From Neelides folsomi (lineage: Eukaryota > Arthropoda > Collembola > Neelipleona > Neelidae), in NCBI GenBank assembly GCA_034687125.1, contig JAQGBZ010000054.1:124001-188000 (forward strand): a DNA stretch of 64,000 nt, in the 5' to 3' direction. Below the pieces are notes generated by a model, which saw only the letters and a list, made by a program, of their open reading frames with translations, had not been told where the DNA came from and ran no database searches. How positions within the stretch are numbered: the first letter of the stretch is position 1; each line of letters begins with the position of its first letter. Positions 11,729 to 54,397 of this stretch are shown here, piece by piece. The translations under genes were made by a program, and so were the position numbers.

Positions 11729-14700
11729 ATGTACAACGGAATCGGACTTACAACTCCGAGGGGATCCGGAACAAATGGATTCGTAACACGGAATTTGTCC
11801 GCTGTTAGAAAAACAAAAGAAAAAGTTCCTGATTACCAAATTAAAGAAGACTCTGCCGTTAGACCATTTGACCCAGAATTGGTTGAACATGAAAGAAGGA
11901 GACAAACAGAGGTAAAAGCTAATTTCTAACTATTTGAATTATATGAAATTCAATCGAAATTTTTCGTCTTAAATAAATCGAATCATTGATTTTAATTAAG
12001 GTGAGATGTATGGAGCTTCGTGAACTTCTTGAAGAACAAGAGATGGATGAAGACAAAATCGACGAGCAAGTTAACGCCTTTCGCATTAAATTACTGGCCG
12101 AGAAGCAAAAGTCATTTCCATTTCAGAGAGATTCTTCTGGAAGAGCAATGTAAGAAATTTTTCAATAACTTTTTCTAGGTTCAAAATTAAATGCTAAAAC
12201 CCATATATTTAGCTATCGTGTTAACTGCAACACTATGTGTATTATTTTATACATCCTCCATAAAATATGATCATGAAGCTGATTTCATAAAATGTCGTTT
12301 TTAATGCATCAGATGCATATTAATCCTTCATTAATGAGAGTGTGGTAGGGGAGAGAACCGGACAGATCAATAAATCCTTTTATCTCCCAATGGCACTCTA
12401 AAATACATGGGAATCTGGGCCTGGAATTTAACACGGAAGCCTGCGCCCTCCCCGTTCCTCCTGAATTATTGATCAATGCAGTCGGGGCCTTCTGTTGGCT
12501 TCTTTATCCCAGAGGGATCAGAGATCCGCTTAGCGGTTTCTTAATTTCTATTACAATCTTTAAATTATTCAGTTTCACTCTTTCAATTATAATGGGTTGA
12601 ACCCATTTAGAATCAATTTTAATTTAGTGACATCCAAGTCTTCCAAAATTAAATTAAATGTATAAATATTTATAATCAAATGTAAATTTTAATTCTAAGT
12701 AATTTTAAGAAACGAAGTCTTCCAAAAATGTCTTCCAACAATATAACCAACGATAATTTAGATAAAATTAAAAACCAATTAATTAATGAAACAAATCATA
12801 ATAGCAAGAAAATCCATAATCAGAATAAAAACATTTCTGAGGATCACATTGTAACAGAGAAAAACGTGTCAGAGAACATTTCCGTGCTTGAGTCAATCTC
12901 CAAAGAGAGGATTTCAGTTAGTAGCAATAAAGTGAATCTGACTCTTGCCAAGTTCTTAGCCCAATCCGAGGAACCGAGGCGGAAGAGGAATTTGAATACA
13001 AGTAGTGACAAAGAGAGGAATAATCAACAAGACTCGGTCGTCCTTACAAATGTAATTGAGGAAAAGAAAAGGAAATTTTTTATTTTCCCTCCCTCTCGGG
13101 ATCCAAATTCTCTGATTAAATTAGGCAGACAGAGAGGCAGACTTGTTTTTATTCCTTCGCCCTCTTCGTGTTGTTGCTGTTGTCGAAGGAGGAAACGCAG
13201 GTTGAGATCTTCGTCTTTATGTACCCAATCTTGCTATTTAAACTTGGACGGATAATAAATTGTTTTATGCCTCATTTTCACTTGTCTTGTATTTGTTTTA
13301 GGGCTCGAGACAGTCATGAGCTTTCATTAGCCCAAGAAGAGAAGAATGACAAAGCAAAGAATGCCTTTGGAATTCGAGAGGATTTTATTCCCGGGTCATC
13401 AATGAGCTCTATTAAGTCGGACAAAGAAGAGAACAGCAATAGTGTGGAAGTGATCAACAACAATGATCAATCAAAGGTATTCATTTAATTATTATTCTAT
13501 GTATACTTTTTTCTTTTATTATTAATTAAGACTTTTTATTTCTTACTTAAATTCATTCTAATGTTTATTAAAAATGGATAAGTTTTTTGTTTAATAATTA
13601 CTCATTTTTATTATTTTATTTAATTAATTAATTGATGATTTGTAGGATGGAAAAGCGGAGAAAGGACAAAAAGAAAAGGAGAAGAAAAGGAAGAAGTCCA
13701 AGAAACGTCGCTCATCCTCGTCATCTTCAAGCTCATCCTCTTCCGAAGATGACTCACGAAAGGCCAAGAAGCGAAAGAAGGAGAAGAAGAAGAAGTCAAA
13801 GAAATCTCATCATCACAGCAGCAGGTAATTAAGATATCCTTTAATTTTTTTATTTTTTTCTCTCACTAACTACCATTAAGTATTGTGTAAAATTAAATGC
13901 TAAAATTGCTAAATCGTAATGTTTTTTCTACCATTTTGACATTACAACATGGCTTACGGACTCGTTTCTGGTTACATTTTCCCCATTTCTCTCTTTAAAT
14001 AACTATTAATGTGGGGGATTTCATACATGGCGAACTGTTTCCTTCGACAACTTTCATTTCAGTTGATTGAATTTTGTTTCATGCACGCGTTTACCATTTA
14101 CAATTTTAATTGTAATTTATAATGAAAAATTTTTTTGCACCTTTAATTGACTAAAAAGGAATGTTGTCGAAGTGAAGGAATAAATATGGGGAGCAGAAAC
14201 GCAAAGCTGTTCGACTTTAATCATAACCTAGTTTGTATAAGTATTTATATCAACTATGGGCAATATATCATCTAATAAAACAATAACTCATTAGTTGTTT
14301 ATATGCTTAATTACAATACTTGTAAGCCGTTTTACTGTGAGTATGAATAACGGAAGGAAATATTTTTTTCTAATTAATTGTGATCTCTGGAGAAGTCATC
14401 ATGGTGAAAAATGGAAATGGAAGGTAAACTCACAAGTGAATGTCTCGTCACACAATCTCATAGACTTTAATATAAATAGAATTCTCTACTAAAATTAACT
14501 TTCTTTAACTTTATTATTACAGTGTCTTTAATTTAAATCAAAATATTTGTAGTTTCTTCTTCACTTTCAACTATGTCTTTTTAGCTTTCACATTTTCCTC
14601 CATCCTTCCCAATTTGCTCCTTTAAATATCGTAGATTTTTTTAATCAAATTGAATAAATATTGAAAGATTAATTTATTAAAATTGTATAATAGGGATCAC

Positions 14701-16578
14701 TTCACTTTAAAAGTTTTTCAATGCTTATTGTCCCTGTTTAATCACTAATTTAGGAATTTGAACAGGCTTCGTAATTTACCAATATCGTTAATTAAAAACT
14801 ATTTTCCAACTAGGTTATTAAACCATACTTATCTCTGTAATAAGTAATGCTTTAATTTCCCTTAAAAATATTTATAATAGAATATTAATTTGCTTTTTCT
14901 TTTTCGTCTTAGGCGAACCGATAGGAACGAGGAGAGATCGAGATCGAGGGACCGCGAGAGGGATCGGAATGGGTGAGTTGATTAATTCAATGATACGAAC
15001 GAATATTTTAGAAAATAATTATTACAGACATTTTAATTATATTGAACGATAGAAATATATTTAATAACGTACAGTATATTAGTTGTATTTTAATTTAAGT
15101 AAAATTATTACTATTGTACAACTGTGTATGAGAGAACAATTTGTTTGTGTGTTGAGTCGGGATTGTGAGTGTGGATCGGAGTCTTCTGTTATTTCTTGCT
15201 GCTCTTCTGCTTCCTCATCTTCCCCACTTCCCATCTCGACCTTTACATTCCTCCGAGAGGGAGGAGAAGGAGACAATGCAATTGTGGAGGCCGACTCGAC
15301 CCATTTCACCCTTTTAGAATTGGGTTGTGAAGAGTCGTCAAATTCAAAATCCCTCTCGCCCCTTCTCCCACTCCCTCCAGAGGAACCCAAAACCAAGAGC
15401 CGCTCGAGAAGTCCCTCAAGTGAAGATGATCGAAGTCACCATAGTCGGAATTCACGATCCAGAAGTTTAAGTGGAGAGAAATCTGTTAAATCCATTTATT
15501 CATCTCGTGGATCCTCACGACGATCTTCAAGATCTGTATCTCGATCTTCCTCATCGCGATCCAGATCCCATTCTTCGAGATCCAATAGTTCGAGGTCAAG
15601 GTCGAGGGGTTCGCGGTCTTCCTCTAAATCCTCTGTTTCAATCCCTCGTCGGAGGGGCTCACCTTCCTTTCTCGATCGGAGACGAATTACAAGGTGATTT
15701 GGAATTGAATTTTATTAAATTGTTCTTTCTTTATTTTCAGGAGTAGGAAGCGAAGAGATTGATTTTCATTTACGCCCCGATTACCATCTTTTTGTTGCCG
15801 TTGCACTCCGCTTCTTTCCCCAAATTTTCCAATGGCTGACTCGTTCTTTAATATTAAGTAAATATCAAGTATGAATGTCACTGCTCGAGTTAGGCTCATT
15901 TATTTTATAAATTGTTACTGTTATTGAATTCATAATCTTGTATTAGTAATAGTTAAATGTTGATAATTATAGTTAATTATTATTCAATTTATAATTTGTT
16001 TTACTTATTACTTATTACTTTTTATTATTACTCGTATTGTAAGTTTTTAATCTTTATTGAATTTTTTATTCCTTGTTATGATTATTTAAGACTATTATTC
16101 TTAAGACTTTTGTCATTGAAGTTCAAATGTACAAAATGATGACGAATTCATTGTTTTGTTAAATAAATACACCATTCATTTTTATTTGCTTATGTTTTAT
16201 TTTCTCGCGGTCATGAACTTAACAAAATGGCGTTAATGTTAATTGTTTTAGTTTTATAACTTTTGCACGTGTTTACATTTATCTAACTACTTCAACTCTA
16301 ACTAAATTTTGTGCATGTTAATTAAAATGTATAATATGAATTAGTTCATTGGTTAGCTTTAATGCTTAATTTACGCAAGTTAAAACGTATCATTTTGGCT
16401 TATTTTACCAAAACTAACATTTAAAATTTAATGATTGTGGGAGTGGGTTTCATGACTAACTCTTTTGCCTTAACTAATTAGCGCACGGAAGCGACCAATT
16501 CCTTACAAGAGGAGAGCTGATTCTGATTGGGATTCTTCTTCTTCTTCTGATTCAAAATCTTCATCTCAATCCGATTGA
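11729..16578 (+). CDS. Srrm234: Srrm2/3/4-type splicing factor (cwf21 domain + RS tail, alternative eMIC end)
   Basis: Spliceosome-associated SR-related protein. Constitutive exons: 11729-11911, 12001-12149, 13302-13476, 13646-13824, 14913-14972, 15157-15693, all phase-consistent. The first 100 or so residues begin MYNGIGLTTPRGSGTNG and continue with the cwf21 helix pair, as in human SRRM2/SRm300; later comes AFGIREDFIPGSS, matching the SRRM2 AFGISDSYVDGSS region. A Lys/Ser-rich tract and an RS-rich exon follow. The donor at 15693 (phase 2) fits two acceptors. Exon 15741-15762 ends RSRKRRD-stop (434 aa). Exon 16482-16578 completes RRRITSARKRPIPYKRR, an eMIC-like tail (459 aa). In animals the eMIC promotes neuronal microexon splicing. 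The start of the 15157 exon rests on phase alone; its first 75 residues are less RS-like. Confidence 0.9.
12700..13200 (+). CDS. Candidate in-frame cassette (or alternative first) exon inside Srrm-like intron 2
   Basis: This open frame lies on the gene strand within the 1,152-bp intron 12150-13301. An acceptor ATTCTAAG at 12699 and a donor CAG|GTTGAG at 13201 bound exactly 501 nt. The incoming (1-nt lead) and outgoing (2-nt overhang) phases match the flanking exons, so inclusion would insert 167 codons without a shift. Alternatively the ATG at 12728 could start an alternative first exon that skips the cwf21 part. The peptide is Asn/Lys/Glu-rich and ends in a short Cys run and a basic stretch; no domain was recognised. 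Whether it is used is unknown. Confidence 0.4.
15741..15762 (+). CDS. Srrm234: Alternative short last exon of the Srrm-like gene (non-eMIC end)
   Basis: The acceptor TTTATTTTCAG at 15740 is strong. Joined to donor 15693 it completes an Arg codon and adds only SRKRRD before TGA. An AATAAA at about 16162 could end this transcript. Use of this exon excludes the eMIC-like exon at 16482. Confidence 0.6.
16482..16578 (+). CDS. Srrm234: Alternative last exon encoding an eMIC-like tail
   Basis: The acceptor ...TAACTAATTAG at 16481 gives a 1-nt lead that completes Ser after RRRIT, producing ITSARKRPIPY. This is the signature of the enhancer-of-microexons (eMIC) segment in SRRM3/SRRM4, preceded in the shared exon by SPSFLDRRR (SPSFLEARR-like in vertebrates). 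A Ser/Asp-rich tail ends at TGA 16576-16578. The 718 bp before it hold the competing short exon and its presumed 3' UTR. Confidence 0.8.
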
Positions 16579-18668
16579 TGATTTGCCCTTATTAATTTTC
16601 TGATTTGGGACGACGACTTCCCCGCCATTTCTACTAATTCTTCTCACTCAGAATTAACTTTGTATTTTATTAAACTTGATCGTGCTTTTATAAGTTGGAG
16701 ATAAGTTTGTAAACGCTATTATTGTTACAATTTACAATAATGACGAACAAGTGTGCAATGTGACATTTAATAATTCTAATGATATTATAAGTTGACAACA
16801 AACTAGACTCAAATGCTGAAATCTTAATAACGAACTTGATAGATTCTTATTGTGTGCTCGTGTGAATAATTCGCAATGCGTATTAACATTAACACAGTGC
16901 AGAAAATAATGACATTCTTAATGTTAGTAATTTTTCACATTTTTAGCATAATATTTAATATGATCTCATGATGTGGAAGGGGCCGGAATACTTAAACTCA
17001 TGTCACCAGTGATTTTAGTCAGTATTGATTTACCAAAAAATATGATTTAATTAACGCTCAAAATACAAATAATAGTCAAATAGTGTAATTTTGCTAGTTA
17101 TAAAATTCACAAGAGATTTCATCTTTAGCACAGGAAATTAAGAATTTCAGTTTAAAGTTATAATTATTATTATAACTGTTTATGTGAAATGTGTAATTCT
17201 CAATAGATGAATGGATCTCTCAGAATTTCCTCGAGACCTCATAAATTGAACCACAAGTATTCGAAGAATCTCTATATCATTCATTTTTATTACTTTTAGT
17301 ACATAGATCCAAAATCTTAAAATGAAATATTTTATTTTTTGTACTCAATTGATTTAAAATCTTTATGGTGTTAATTTTTTTGCTAAATTCATCTCGAGGT
17401 AATTTGTAACTGTTAAACTTTAAGTTAATGATATTACTCAAAGATATTGCAATCTCTAGTCATTTGTCAATGATGCTGAGCTGAAGTGATGTTAATAAAA
17501 AGATGAAACTGAAATCGAAAGTCTATTTTCATTCACATACTTAGGTACATGCTTACATTATTATTCAACAGAGGATATTATGCGTTTAAATCATTATTTG
17601 ATCACTCTAAACTAAATTGATCTTAAAGCCGCTCACACTTTGCTTTTGAAGCATTTTGGGAGACACTTTGAAAAGTATCAAAACTCATCAAAATACCAAC
17701 AATAACAATAAAAAAATATAAACATTGATTTGTTAAAAGTGGTTACATTACAATTCGCCACAACAATGAGGATTTCAGGTTCAATGAACCACTAAAATTG
17801 AATAAATGAAAGTTATTCGCAAACTTTCCTATGTAAGTTTAAGTAGTTGTGCATATTACATTCTCATTGTACTTAAGACGTTTCTTTCCTCTCAAGTCTC
17901 AACCTTCACGTTCAATAGAAAATTGCAAACTTTCATGAAACCCAATAAATACTGAATAAAAGGCCTCTTTACACATTTTATTCTCTCTCAGAATCAGATA
18001 CCAGGATGTATGTAAAATTATAAATGTTATAAAACCCAAGAACGTGTTACATTTTCAATGGCAAAAAAAGCGCAAAATTAGTTGATAATTGAATTTTGAT
18101 AAAATCTATTCACAATGCATGAAATCCTAAACAAGTAAGTTGCATACTTATATGAAATTATCTAATTAAACATATACACTGCAATTACAATCACTTTTAA
18201 AGGCTATTAAGTCTCGCTCCCTCGGCTCATATCACGTCTCTCAAACTCAAATCTCTCCCCCCAACAAAGAGGTGATTTTAAGTATGTTGGTGTGTAACGG
18301 CATTATGTGTGACTTTTTATTCTATACAATACAAGTTTTTACTCTCGATTACGTTGGCTCAAAGGAGTTGTTGTCAGTATGTCTGTGGCTTTGACAAGAC
18401 ATAGTCGGAAAGTTTTTTGATTATTTATTTTTATATTCAATTCCTACTTTAAGTTATGTTAGATAAAAGAAGATAATTTGAAAATATTAAAAAATCTATA
18501 ATAAGCAATAAACGATTGGTTCAATATTCGGTCAACATAAATATGGAATAATTTGGTTCCGTTTGATCTGAAAATAAACGTGATACAAGTTTTATAAATA
18601 ATATACACACTATTGTATTCTGCCTTGTGATTTTGTGAGTGCAATTATATTTGTAGTGAGAAAGTGAG
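16579..18668. other. AT-rich intergenic region
   Basis: About 2.1 kb between the eMIC-type stop and the GMC oxidoreductase start. I see only AT-rich sequence with no supportable ORF, RNA gene or long repeat. The last few hundred bases must hold the promoter and 5' UTR of the next gene. Confidence 0.5.
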
Positions 18669-21600
18669 ATGGAGAGGCAAATGGTTAGAAATGGCTTATT
18701 AAGCCCGTTAGTTTCAACTATAATGTCTTTAGCCATTTATGGTGGATTTGCTGTAGTTCCGATCTTCATTCTTGAATATTCAGTTTTGGACGAATTCTCA
18801 GAACGACTCAATGTTTTAGAGAAACACGAAACTTTCGATTTCATTGTTGGTATTTTAATAAACGATTTTAAAGTCATTACTTTTAAAAAATTATAATAAA
18901 CTGTTTTGTAGTTGGAGCAGGAGTCTCGGGTTCAGTAGTGGCAAATAGATTAAGTAAAGAATACAAAGTGCTTCTTATTGAAGCTGGTGGTAAGATGACA
19001 ATTTGTGAAGAAAATCCTATCTTTACTATCATTTATTTATTTATACATACCATTTTAATACTTACCAAATACTTACCATTTTAATACTATTCGCTTTCAC
19101 AAATGAAAAATTCTATAAATGAAACATTAAATTAAAGGGGAACCAAATCCACTTCAGTCAATTCCAGCCGCTGCTCCTTTGTTCCTCAACAGTCCTCAAG
19201 TTGATTATATGTATCGAACAACACCACAAGATCATGCATGCCAGTCTTTAAATAATTTTGTAATGCCAAATTGTTTAGAATTTAAATTATTAAGAATTTC
19301 GGTTTATCGTTTTACAATAATTTATAATTTACTAAATACAGCAAAGTTTGTGGCCTAGAGGAAGATCCTTAGGAGGAACGTCGAATTTAAACTTTATGGT
19401 TTACGCTCGGGGGCATCCTTTAGATTATGACAACTGGGCTGAATTGACAGGAGACAACCGTTGGAGTTATGAAAATATTTTACCATTTTTTAAAATGTCC
19501 GAAAACTATGCGAGTCATGAAGGAAATTGTGAGCGAAGGAACATAATAAAAATCCTACCTAATCCTACCTAAGTCATAAAGTTATCTAATATAATCAAAA
19601 TCTTTTTAATGAATCTGAATAATGAAATGATTGACATTGAGAATTTAATGATCGCGAGTTGATCGTTTATTTTTATTTGGCTAGTGTTTTATCATGGTTC
19701 TGGGGGAGAATTGAATATTGAGCCAAGTCCATTTAACGACCTTGCAAGATATTTTGTCAAAGCTGCCGAAGAATCTGGTTATCCGAATGTAGACATCAAC
19801 GCACCTTATGATGAAGGCGAGTCACATGCTACTTTGATGTTGATCTTTCATTTCGATGTCAAAAGTTTTAATCATTGAAAGAGAAGGATTTTGATTGTTT
19901 TGCATGTTTAGGCTTTTCGCAATGTTTTTACACTACGAAGAATCGACGGCGTTGGGGAGCCTTTCAAGCTTTTCTTCAGCCCATTAGGGAGCAAAGGAAA
20001 AAATCACTCGTCATTCGCAAATTTTCAACTGTTACTAAAGTTCGACAACTATAGCCGCTCATTATAATTAGCAACTTCAAATCCTAATCAATTTAAATTT
20101 CATAATACTTATTATGTTATTATTATCATTATGCGATTTAATTATGAAGGCAATTACGTGTGCATAATATGAAAATCTTTTTTATTCACTGAAGGTACTA
20201 CTGAATGATAATAATGAAGCATTTGGTGTGGAATACGAGAGATTTGGCGTTAAAAGGACAGCAAAAGCTGGGAGAGAAGTGATCTTGAGGTATTATTCTT
20301 GTTTAACAATACACATACTACATATCCATACACAATACATTTGTGTATGTAATATGTTATTGTGTTATAATAATAATATTTTGAAAAATATATGAAATTT
20401 TATTTCTTTTAATTGAATATTTTAATGATTAAACTCTTTCAATATCATAAGTGCTGGGACAATTGGATCTGCAAAGATTTTAATGATTTCTGGAATTGGT
20501 CCGAAAGAGCATCTTGAAAGTCTTGGGGTGAGATAAATTATACTTACAAATTCCAATCAAAAAAAATAATCACATTGTGGGATAAAAAATATTTGAGCCT
20601 TATGTAAGGAATCATCGTATCATATTCATTACATGCTTAAATCACATTCTTTATTTTTTTAAAGATCAGAACGAAAGTTGATTTGCCAGTAGGAAAAAAT
20701 TTACAAGATCACGTCAGTAAGTAGTAATAATATTCATTATTAAAAGAGTCATACTATTTTATTATTGATTCATTAAGAAAACGAGAACCATATAAATCAT
20801 ATAATGTACATAATACATATAATTTGTATATTAATTCATCTTTTGATTGTAGTTGGACTAGTCGGCCCATTTTTCATCGATCAACCCCTTACGTTCTTAT
20901 TGGACAGAGACTCTGGCCCTTCTCATCTTGTCAACTATGCAATAAATGGGACAGGGCCTTTGAGTTCTTCTGGCGTGGCAGCGACGGGTTTCATTCACTC
21001 CCATCTTTCCAAAGAGCGGCTCAATGCGACTGGGCTTTCATGGGCTGACATTCAACTCATTTTGTTAGCCATCCCGATTCATCAACAAGGGCCCGAAAAA
21101 CTCGCCGAACTTTACAATCTCAATCCTCAAATTGCGGAAGAATTCTACAGGCCTGCGGCTGGGAAGGATTCTTTCCACATTATGAGCATTGCAAGCAGAC
21201 CAAAGTCAAGAGGAGAAATTCGTCTTGCTTCAGCTGACCCCAATCAACGGCCACTCATCAACCCAAACTATCTTTCAAATGAATACGATGTAAACATCAT
21301 TTTAGAAGGTAAAAACTTTTATATATAATCTTAAAGGTATTATTTTTGATAATTTTTAAATGATGAAAAAATTGACTTTAAAAGATAAGTATCAGTATAA
21401 AAGTAATCATAATTAATATGATATAAATTATTTATAATTTTTGTCTTTTTTATTATAGGTATAATAAAAGCGATAGCTTTAGTTGAAGAAACCAACGTTT
21501 TTAAATCCGTTGGAGGAAGATTGAATCCAACTCCTTTCCCATCTTGCAAACATCTCGAATATAGGAGTTTGAATTATTGGGAATGTTACCTTCGGCATTT

Positions 21601-52294: not shown

Positions 52295-54397
52295 TTATTT
52301 CTTCCCCTTTTTCTTGTTTTTGCTTCCTTTGCTCTTCCCTTTCTTTCCCTTCTTTCCTTTCTTCCCCTTTCTCTTCTTGGTTTTCTTCGCTGCTCTTTTC
52401 CTAATCATATCACCACATTTTAATTAAAATCTCTTTTAAAATTACTACCAAATTATTCTTAAGAACATTAATTTATTAAATTTCACTAATTGTTTGATAC
52501 GAATACCTTTCGACATTTATTTTCTCGATTTCTTTTTGAATTTCTTTTAATTCATCGTCCAGTTGTTCAATCTCGCCTTTAATTTTTGTGTGATTAGCTT
52601 CTGCTAAATCTTTTGTTTTCTTAATTTCCAAAAAATCCCTCCTTGGGACAACATCTTTATAGCGGAGCTCCAATACTTTACATCTTTAACGAATGTAAAT
52701 ATCATTAATACGAATCTTATTTATTTAATACCATATAAGAAATATCTATATTTATTATGAAGTTGTATGAAAAATGGATGTAAAAAAATTATAATCAAAT
52801 AATAAAGCTTACTCTTCTCTTGCTTTTCTATAATCCTTTCTTGCTACTTGGAGAGCTTTTCTAAGTACAATTGGATCATCCGCTGTGAATTGTTGCATAC
52901 TTTCTGGCTCTTCTATTTTAACATTAAACTCTTCAATGTCATCGTACCAATTTTTATCAAAAGGTCTTGGATCCAATCCGAGCTGCTGTCTAATCACATT
53001 AATATCTTCAAGAATCATTCGTTTCATGTCTTCAGCTTCTCTTCGTTGATCTACTTGATCGGTCAAATCAAACTCAAGCCTGTGAATTTCAAATATGTAG
53101 TTTAAACCAATCTCTTTCATTTTTAAAACAAAAATTCAAAAAATTGATTATAAAGCAATTAATAATTCCAATACAATGCGATACAATGTATAATATAATT
53201 TACAATTGCAAGAGATCCGTCACGTATCTGATAACTTGTTCCCTGTATGCAATCCTTTTTGTCAAATAACTGCAAATATTGTCAAGATTGACCAAACCAG
53301 TTTCTCCATCAAACTTGAGATTTTCTCCAGCGATTTCAAACTCTAGTCTGGCTGTTTCAATATTCCTCTTCATCTTTTGCATATTGCTGATTTGAACGTC
53401 ACGGACTAAAATGACATTATCGTAACAACGCTTGATATTTCTCAACAAGGGAGAATAAGCCTCAAAGCGGAGGAGAAACGCGCTGAAAGCTCTTGCATAG
53501 ATCTTGTGTCTGTCGTAAGTTTTGGATTCTGGTTCCATCATTGAGTAAATTCTGAACAGCTTATCTGTATAACTCATATCTCTTGGGACTTCTGTAGTAC
53601 GACAATTCTTTTGCATCATCTCTTGGAATTTAAATTGTTCTCTGGCTCTAATTTCATTCGGTGGTTTGCATCTGTTCTTGGCGATCTCTTCTGCTGTTAC
53701 TTTCTCGAGGAAAAAGAGGAATTTGGATTCTATGACCATTGCGGCTGGCCGAACCTATTTATTTGTATTAGAAATATTTAATTATCACTAATCTTAATTT
53801 AACTAGGTCTGTATTTATATTTACACCATAATTGGTTGTATCATTTAATAATATTATATTTATTCATACTGTGAGGATTTGTGAAAATCCATCTTCTTTT
53901 TCCTCATCTTCGTATTTTTTACAATGAGGAAGATCTTTTTCTATTAGTACATATTTTCGTACAGGTGTAGAATTGATGCCAATTCCACCTTCGAGAAAAT
54001 CTCTTTGCAAGTCATCAATCATTTTAGATGCTAAAAGTTCTTTCCGATCAACGTCAAATCCTGAGACCAATTGCTTGAATGTATGTGGACATTTCTCATC
54101 TAATGGTCCTTCTTCTATTTCTCCCACCCATTCTGGCTCTTTGGGAATTTGAGGAAAATAAGAAGTTTCTCCAGGGAATTCTTCTTGTGCCATGAGTTCA
54201 ATTAGTTTCTTGTCCAAATATGCTTCAATCTCATCGTACTCGCCTTCGTAGATGTCATCATAGCCATATCCTAACCCGTAGCTTGACCAATCGTGACGAA
54301 GCCAAGATTTTTCTTCTTCTTCGTCGTATTCCTCCTCATCATCTAATTTTCCTATGTAAATATTGCCAAAATTAACAGGATCTTTGGCCGGATCCAT
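52295..54397 (-). CDS. Coiled-coil protein, probably TSNAXIP1-like (cilia/sperm-associated family)
   Basis: Minus-strand exons: 54397-53870, 53754-53204, 53079-52813, 52683-52507, 52400-52295 (542 aa), phase-consistent. An acidic Tyr/Glu-rich N-terminus is followed by an all-helical middle. The segment AFLLRFEAYSPLLRNIKRCYD resembles the N-terminal domain of translin-associated factor X-interacting protein 1 (a helix with a conserved Y-x-PLL-x-IK-x-x-Y pattern). The later YKDVVPRRDF motif is also typical of that family. Coiled coil continues to a tail of alternating Lys/Gly (KKGKKGKKGKS). The identification is from remembered motifs and is moderate. TSNAXIP1 relatives are expressed in testis and ciliated cells. 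Confidence 0.6.

Follow-up and report, generated by a model that had tools for sequence, protein, structure and literature searches.

In Drosophila, the available text of PMC8797185 describes Srrm234 as a gene with a proximal exon that is either terminal or a poison exon and a distal exon carrying the enhancer-of-microexons segment (eMIC), with Elav/Fne promoting the distal form in neurons, and the same text reports this arrangement as conserved at least in holometabolous insects. In neurons of vertebrates, as in those of flies, this segment leads to the inclusion of very short exons. More broadly, multiple isoforms from one SRRM234 gene are regarded as the ancestral bilaterian state in the accessible part of PMC10551640.

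To these systems we compare an Srrm234 gene of Neelides folsomi, found in a window of 64,000 nucleotides (the whole stretch of DNA analysed, C54:124001-188000) from a genome of 75.1 Mb in 840 contigs. We consider it very probable that the gene has two alternative last exons, a proximal one used by default and a distal one, switched on by ELAV, that completes the eMIC and would promote neural microexons.

Identity of the gene and its genomic setting

The gene model up to the last exon common to both ends is as follows (window coordinates), with consistent phases and GT-AG introns throughout the six shared exons.

11729-16578, forward strand: Srrm234 gene, from splice sites, phases and homology
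11729..11911, forward strand: exon 1, SRRM2/CWC21-type N-terminus beginning MYNGIGLTTPRGSGTNGFV; phmmer match to human SRRM2 (5mqf_S), E = 4.4e-32
12001..12149, forward strand: exon 2; the cwf21 domain (residues 53-95; Pfam E = 5.8e-15) is encoded jointly by this exon and the end of exon 1
13302..13476, forward strand: exon 3, phases consistent; the alignment with human SRRM2 extends into its first part
13646..13824, forward strand: exon 4, Lys/Ser-rich, from splice sites and phase
14913..14972, forward strand: exon 5, Arg-rich, from splice sites and phase
15157..15693, forward strand: exon 6, the last shared exon, RS region and SRRM_C/eMIC profile positions 2-55

The gene thus carries both the SRRM2/CWC21-type N-terminus and the cwf21 domain of the Srrm2/3/4 family. 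Its alignment to human SRRM2 (PDB 5mqf_S, E = 4.4e-32) spans residues 1-151 and crosses the joins of exons 1, 2 and 3, and the cwf21 domain is also recovered in the full 459-aa distal protein (Pfam E = 1.7e-14). When the genome was queried with the N-terminus, two places matched among the best candidates scored, both of them adjacent exons of this gene, so that among those candidates this non-vertebrate has a single Srrm234 gene. Manual reading of the sequence also showed an acceptor-like site at 15382, which we discounted since its use would break the RS frame.

A search for relatives in viral contigs gave 99 pattern matches, none of which was confirmed, and one in genome contigs gave 163, with one confirmed locus at 38% identity. 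This locus (L031, JAIYDP010000058.1), a cwf21-gene-like N-terminus in a pond Verrucomicrobiaceae bin, was left out as probable eukaryotic contamination.

A contig of 15,157 bases holds mitochondrial genes, with cox1 identified by Pfam, the others by eye from translations and the tRNAs by ARAGORN. Its gene order is pancrustacean, because trnL(taa) sits between cox1 and cox2, a position given as ancestral for pancrustaceans in the consulted part of PMC7923271 and as diagnostic for Pancrustacea in that of PMC6706885.

Two further features of the window were noted. An open frame of 189 codons (12686-13255, forward strand) lies within intron 2, and about 0.005 such frames would be expected in the window from base composition; the part from its first ATG has no Pfam match at E 0.001, and it could be an alternative exon or start, for which only weak in-phase splice sites were seen. 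Further along, a TSNAXIP1_N match lies at 53200-53754 on the reverse strand, and neighbouring open frames on that strand look coiled-coil by eye.

Two alternative ends and the eMIC profile

Exon 6 follows an acceptor AG at 15155-15156 and closes on the donor AAG|GTGATT, its last residues SPSFLDRRRIT being followed by AG, two bases of a codon. From this one donor two GT-AG introns, of 47 and 788 nt, lead to two acceptors in a common phase, the nearer of which brings an early stop, as in the fly; reading through the donor would give ITR and then a stop ending at 15697.

15694..15740, forward strand: proximal intron, 47 nt, GT-AG with a pyrimidine-rich acceptor
15741..15762, forward strand: coding part of the proximal tail, RSRKRRD and the stop TGA; truncated eMIC
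16162..16167, forward strand: AATAAA, candidate proximal poly-A signal from a motif scan, the sole AATAAA between the donor and the distal acceptor
16456..16481, forward strand: distal acceptor region, with CTAAC at -26, TGC at -16, CTAAT at -8 and TAG
16482..16578, forward strand: coding part of the distal exon, SARKRPIPY... matching SRRM_C/eMIC profile positions 56-66, then the stop
16669..16674, forward strand: ATTAAA, candidate distal poly-A signal from a motif scan; other variant signals lie around this and the proximal candidate

The acceptor at 15741 yields seven residues including the split codon, with TGA ending at 15762 and a protein of 434 aa, while that at 16482 yields 32 residues (SARKRPIPYKRRADSDWDSSSSSDSKSSSQSD), with TGA ending at 16578 and a protein of 459 aa. 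A preliminary description of this DNA had placed the end of the shared exon correctly to the base, had the exon at 15741 stop after seven residues, as it does, and had named both acceptors and their phases, which we confirmed on the sequence (both AG sites, one common phase).

To identify the distal segment we used the Pfam family SRRM_C (PF15230; curated cut-off 27 bits), which, given its name, we take to be the same segment as the eMIC. A 136-aa query ending in the distal tail scored 46.7 bits. Putting the proximal tail in its place lowered the score to 21.7, and leaving the tail off gave 19.5; the tail by itself reached 13.9. The full 459-aa distal protein scored 44.4 bits, so the distal isoform stands above the cut-off, as the preliminary description required of an HMM search. 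Of the 67 profile positions, 55 is the last one matched before the exon join and 56 the first one after it. The description's claim that the exon at 16482 supplies the eMIC-like tail is therefore upheld with a refinement: the distal exon adds only positions 56-66, and positions 2-55 lie in the shared exon. Since the shared exon already encodes positions 2-55, the proximal isoform is a truncated eMIC form. The cwf21 and SRRM_C matches both exceed their cut-offs in the 459-aa protein and the SRRM2 alignment runs across exons 1-3, and because these matches fall within one predicted protein, cwf21 and eMIC belong, as had been proposed, to one gene with alternative ends.

The dependence of eMIC completion on the distal exon is seen when other tails are put in its place. 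From the 172 AG sites in 15700-19700, ten tails were scanned with Pfam, namely the two described here and eight controls, hand-picked from the 14 longest open tails with overlapping ones skipped. In trimmed queries the distal tail scored 53.2 bits, the proximal 28.0 and the eight controls 24.7-28.2, so that the distal tail stands at least 25 bits above all nine others, and acceptor 16482 is the only one of the ten with which the match runs out to the profile's end (position 66 of 67). Besides the distal tail, the proximal tail (narrowly) and four of the eight chance tails passed 27 bits; the cut-off alone therefore fails to separate the isoforms, and it is the extra 25 bits that do so. Two hand-scrambled tails, one residue longer than the real tail and not exactly keeping its composition, gave 16.0 and 19.9 bits against 46.7, and no SRRM_C match was obtained with an invented RS-rich decoy, or when the RS part ahead of the true tail was scrambled by hand. 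A genome-wide search with the SRRM_C model returned no match; since an intron interrupts the domain, this was expected and does not show that it is absent. Among solved structures, a query of 55 aa from the eMIC had a single match (E = 0.71), taken as unrelated.

The distal acceptor lies 741 nt beyond the proximal one, and the pyrimidine fraction over the 20 acceptor bases is 0.75 for the distal against 0.85 for the proximal site. The motif scan also found ATTAAA, AGTAAA and TATAAA variants between the donor and the distal acceptor, and three donor-like sites lie 3' of 15741, at 15858 (TAA|GTAAAT), 15946 (TTA|GTAATA) and 16039 (ATT|GTAAGT). The stretch from the donor to the distal acceptor contains UUUNUUU six times, a count reached by 11 of 317 overlapping tiles, whose mean is 1.7; two of the six sites are inside the pyrimidine tract of the proximal intron and the region is AT-rich, and we regard the excess as weak evidence that ELAV may control the choice of end. 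By eye, the tails at 15741-15762 and 16482-16503 have GGAAGCGA in common; it stands equally far from each acceptor and is read in the same frame, encoding RKR in either tail. This could be a duplicated exon start, a common splicing enhancer or chance.

Candidate microexons and the choice of end

An ELAV-type gene is present on contig C97, with pieces covering profile positions 1-221 and 224-350 of 351. It contains a 42-nt in-frame exon in the hinge, between the exons of the second and third RNA-binding domains, that encodes STGKAMLAINKGLQ and with the next codon, R, gives MLAINKGLQR. This exon fits the microexon motif given in the available part of PMC8553928, and is the sole match to it in three forward frames of a 7-kb stretch. 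A second strong ELAV-family match, at C301:3092-3397, has one in-frame stop in the matched stretch and may be a paralogue, a retrocopy or intron read-through.

The EndoB gene (C212), which matches human endophilin-B1 at E = 5.1e-60, has a 36-nt phase-0 in-frame exon encoding KDGSDPRVLIQQ, and 12 gap columns of that alignment fall, in two pieces, at and beside the stretch of this exon. Its position is presumably that of the neural insert of the vertebrate gene. The portion of PMC8797185 consulted names four exons that sit at equivalent positions in mouse and fly; only the one in EndoB was also present in every other insect studied there. The EndoB and ELAV exons are candidate eMIC targets, and an ELAV-type gene together with short in-frame exons at two published microexon sites lends indirect support to a neural microexon programme. 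The AG-free zones ahead of the two exons measure 122 nt (EndoB) and 128 nt (ELAV), compared with 20-97 nt in 12 other introns and 36 nt at the distal Srrm234 acceptor. In addition to EndoB, the genome showed three endophilin-like genes, at C402:4635-5144, C8:401299-402138 and C40:276248-277463, recognised by eye through their BAR matches and open frames; the proteins from C402 and C8 are closely similar but not identical.

On the pattern of the fly work, the acceptor at 15741, 47 nt downstream of the donor, would be used by default and the transcript would finish at the poly-A signal close by, its product being a general splicing cofactor that has cwf21 but just a truncated eMIC. Blocking of the proximal acceptor, or of the poly-A site, by an ELAV/Hu protein in neurons would then let the donor at 15693 be joined to 16482 to give a complete eMIC segment, and the distal isoform, presumably neural, would promote the inclusion of short neural exons.

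The distal exon might instead be a minor or decaying remnant, with the gene ending at 15741 everywhere and the eMIC disused, as its less pyrimidine-rich (0.75 versus 0.85) and 741-nt more distant acceptor could suggest. Sequence no longer in use should drift, whereas the distal tail still matches the profile in frame at positions 56-66 and is followed by a stop and a candidate poly-A signal, and an open frame likewise runs through the short exons at the microexon sites of EndoB and ELAV; we therefore consider such decay very improbable. That the eMIC-like tail is a chance likeness of Arg/Ser-rich low-complexity sequence is barely credible: the trimmed RS-rich shared exon does come near the SRRM_C cut-off with any tail (24.7-28.2 bits for the eight chance tails), but the true tail exceeds these by at least 25 bits, the scrambled tails fall far below it, the decoy and the scrambled RS part lose the match altogether, and the Srrm2/3/4 identity of the gene is established independently by the human SRRM2 match.

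A different question is whether the proximal exon is terminal at all, since it could act mainly as a poison exon that is itself joined to the distal exon, as in isoform G of the fly, a form that the available text of PMC8797185 documents. The donor-like sites at 15858, 15946 and 16039 would allow this; they are only consensus-like, however, and the AATAAA at 16162 suggests that the proximal exon is able to terminate alone, so that we think a poison exon unlikely.

We also considered that the eMIC isoform promotes its own distal exon, with ELAV starting the switch and the eMIC protein holding it on. In the fly, according to the accessible part of PMC8797185, exons that depend on the eMIC combine strong CUAAY branch points with a UGC in the vicinity of the 3' splice site; their 3' splice sites are very weak and their AG-free zones long. 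The distal acceptor has UGC at -16 and CUAAY at -26, and the EndoB microexon acceptor has them at -12 and -42; with UGC within 20 nt and CUAAY within 60 nt, both of these acceptors carry the pair, compared with none of the 12 other introns measured in these two genes. Across the window, 0.22% of 3231 AG sites on the forward strand and 0.70% of 3291 on the reverse strand have both marks (TGC at -20 to -3, CTAAY at -50 to -13). The motif windows were, however, chosen after the sites were seen, the ELAV hinge exon lacks the pair (TGC at -25, no CTAAY), the AG-free zone of the distal acceptor is short (36 nt), its pyrimidine fraction of 0.75 is not weak beside other introns (0.45-0.90), and the switch reported in the available text on the fly is Elav/Fne (PMC8797185). 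Such self-promotion seems improbable to us; if it does occur, it would account for the way in which a neuron fixes its microexon programme. No mention of Srrm234/SRRM4 self-regulation was found in the accessible parts of PMC8797185 (by term search), PMC13281805 and PMC10551640, which is not a claim that it is unpublished.

Comparison with known systems

The closest likeness to the two-ended gene preferred here is Drosophila melanogaster Srrm234 (CG7971), whose isoforms A/G and C/F likewise have cwf21 with, respectively, a very short proximal tail and a distal exon that completes the eMIC; the fly also has an ELAV-family gene, as does the N. folsomi genome. The proximal tail is seven residues long in N. 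folsomi and four in the fly, to judge from the consulted text of PMC8797185. The match to the proposed ancestral bilaterian design claimed in the preliminary description agrees with PMC10551640 and with the fly architecture of PMC8797185, in the parts of both that were available. The arrangement was already known from fruit flies, and the N. folsomi sequence confirms it in another animal, placing cwf21 and an alternative eMIC end in a compact 75-Mb pancrustacean genome and supplying exact junctions and two candidate target exons for testing.

Human SRRM2 and yeast CWC21 have the N-terminus and cwf21 domain in common with N. folsomi Srrm234, but SRRM2, unlike the distal isoform, is without eMIC in the available portion of PMC10551640. 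Vertebrate SRRM3 and SRRM4 also carry the eMIC, and there, as the accessible text of PMC8797185 has it, the segment is restricted by the transcription of separate genes, whereas in N. folsomi it belongs to an alternative end of one gene, in line with the published view that such an end is how microexon control arose.
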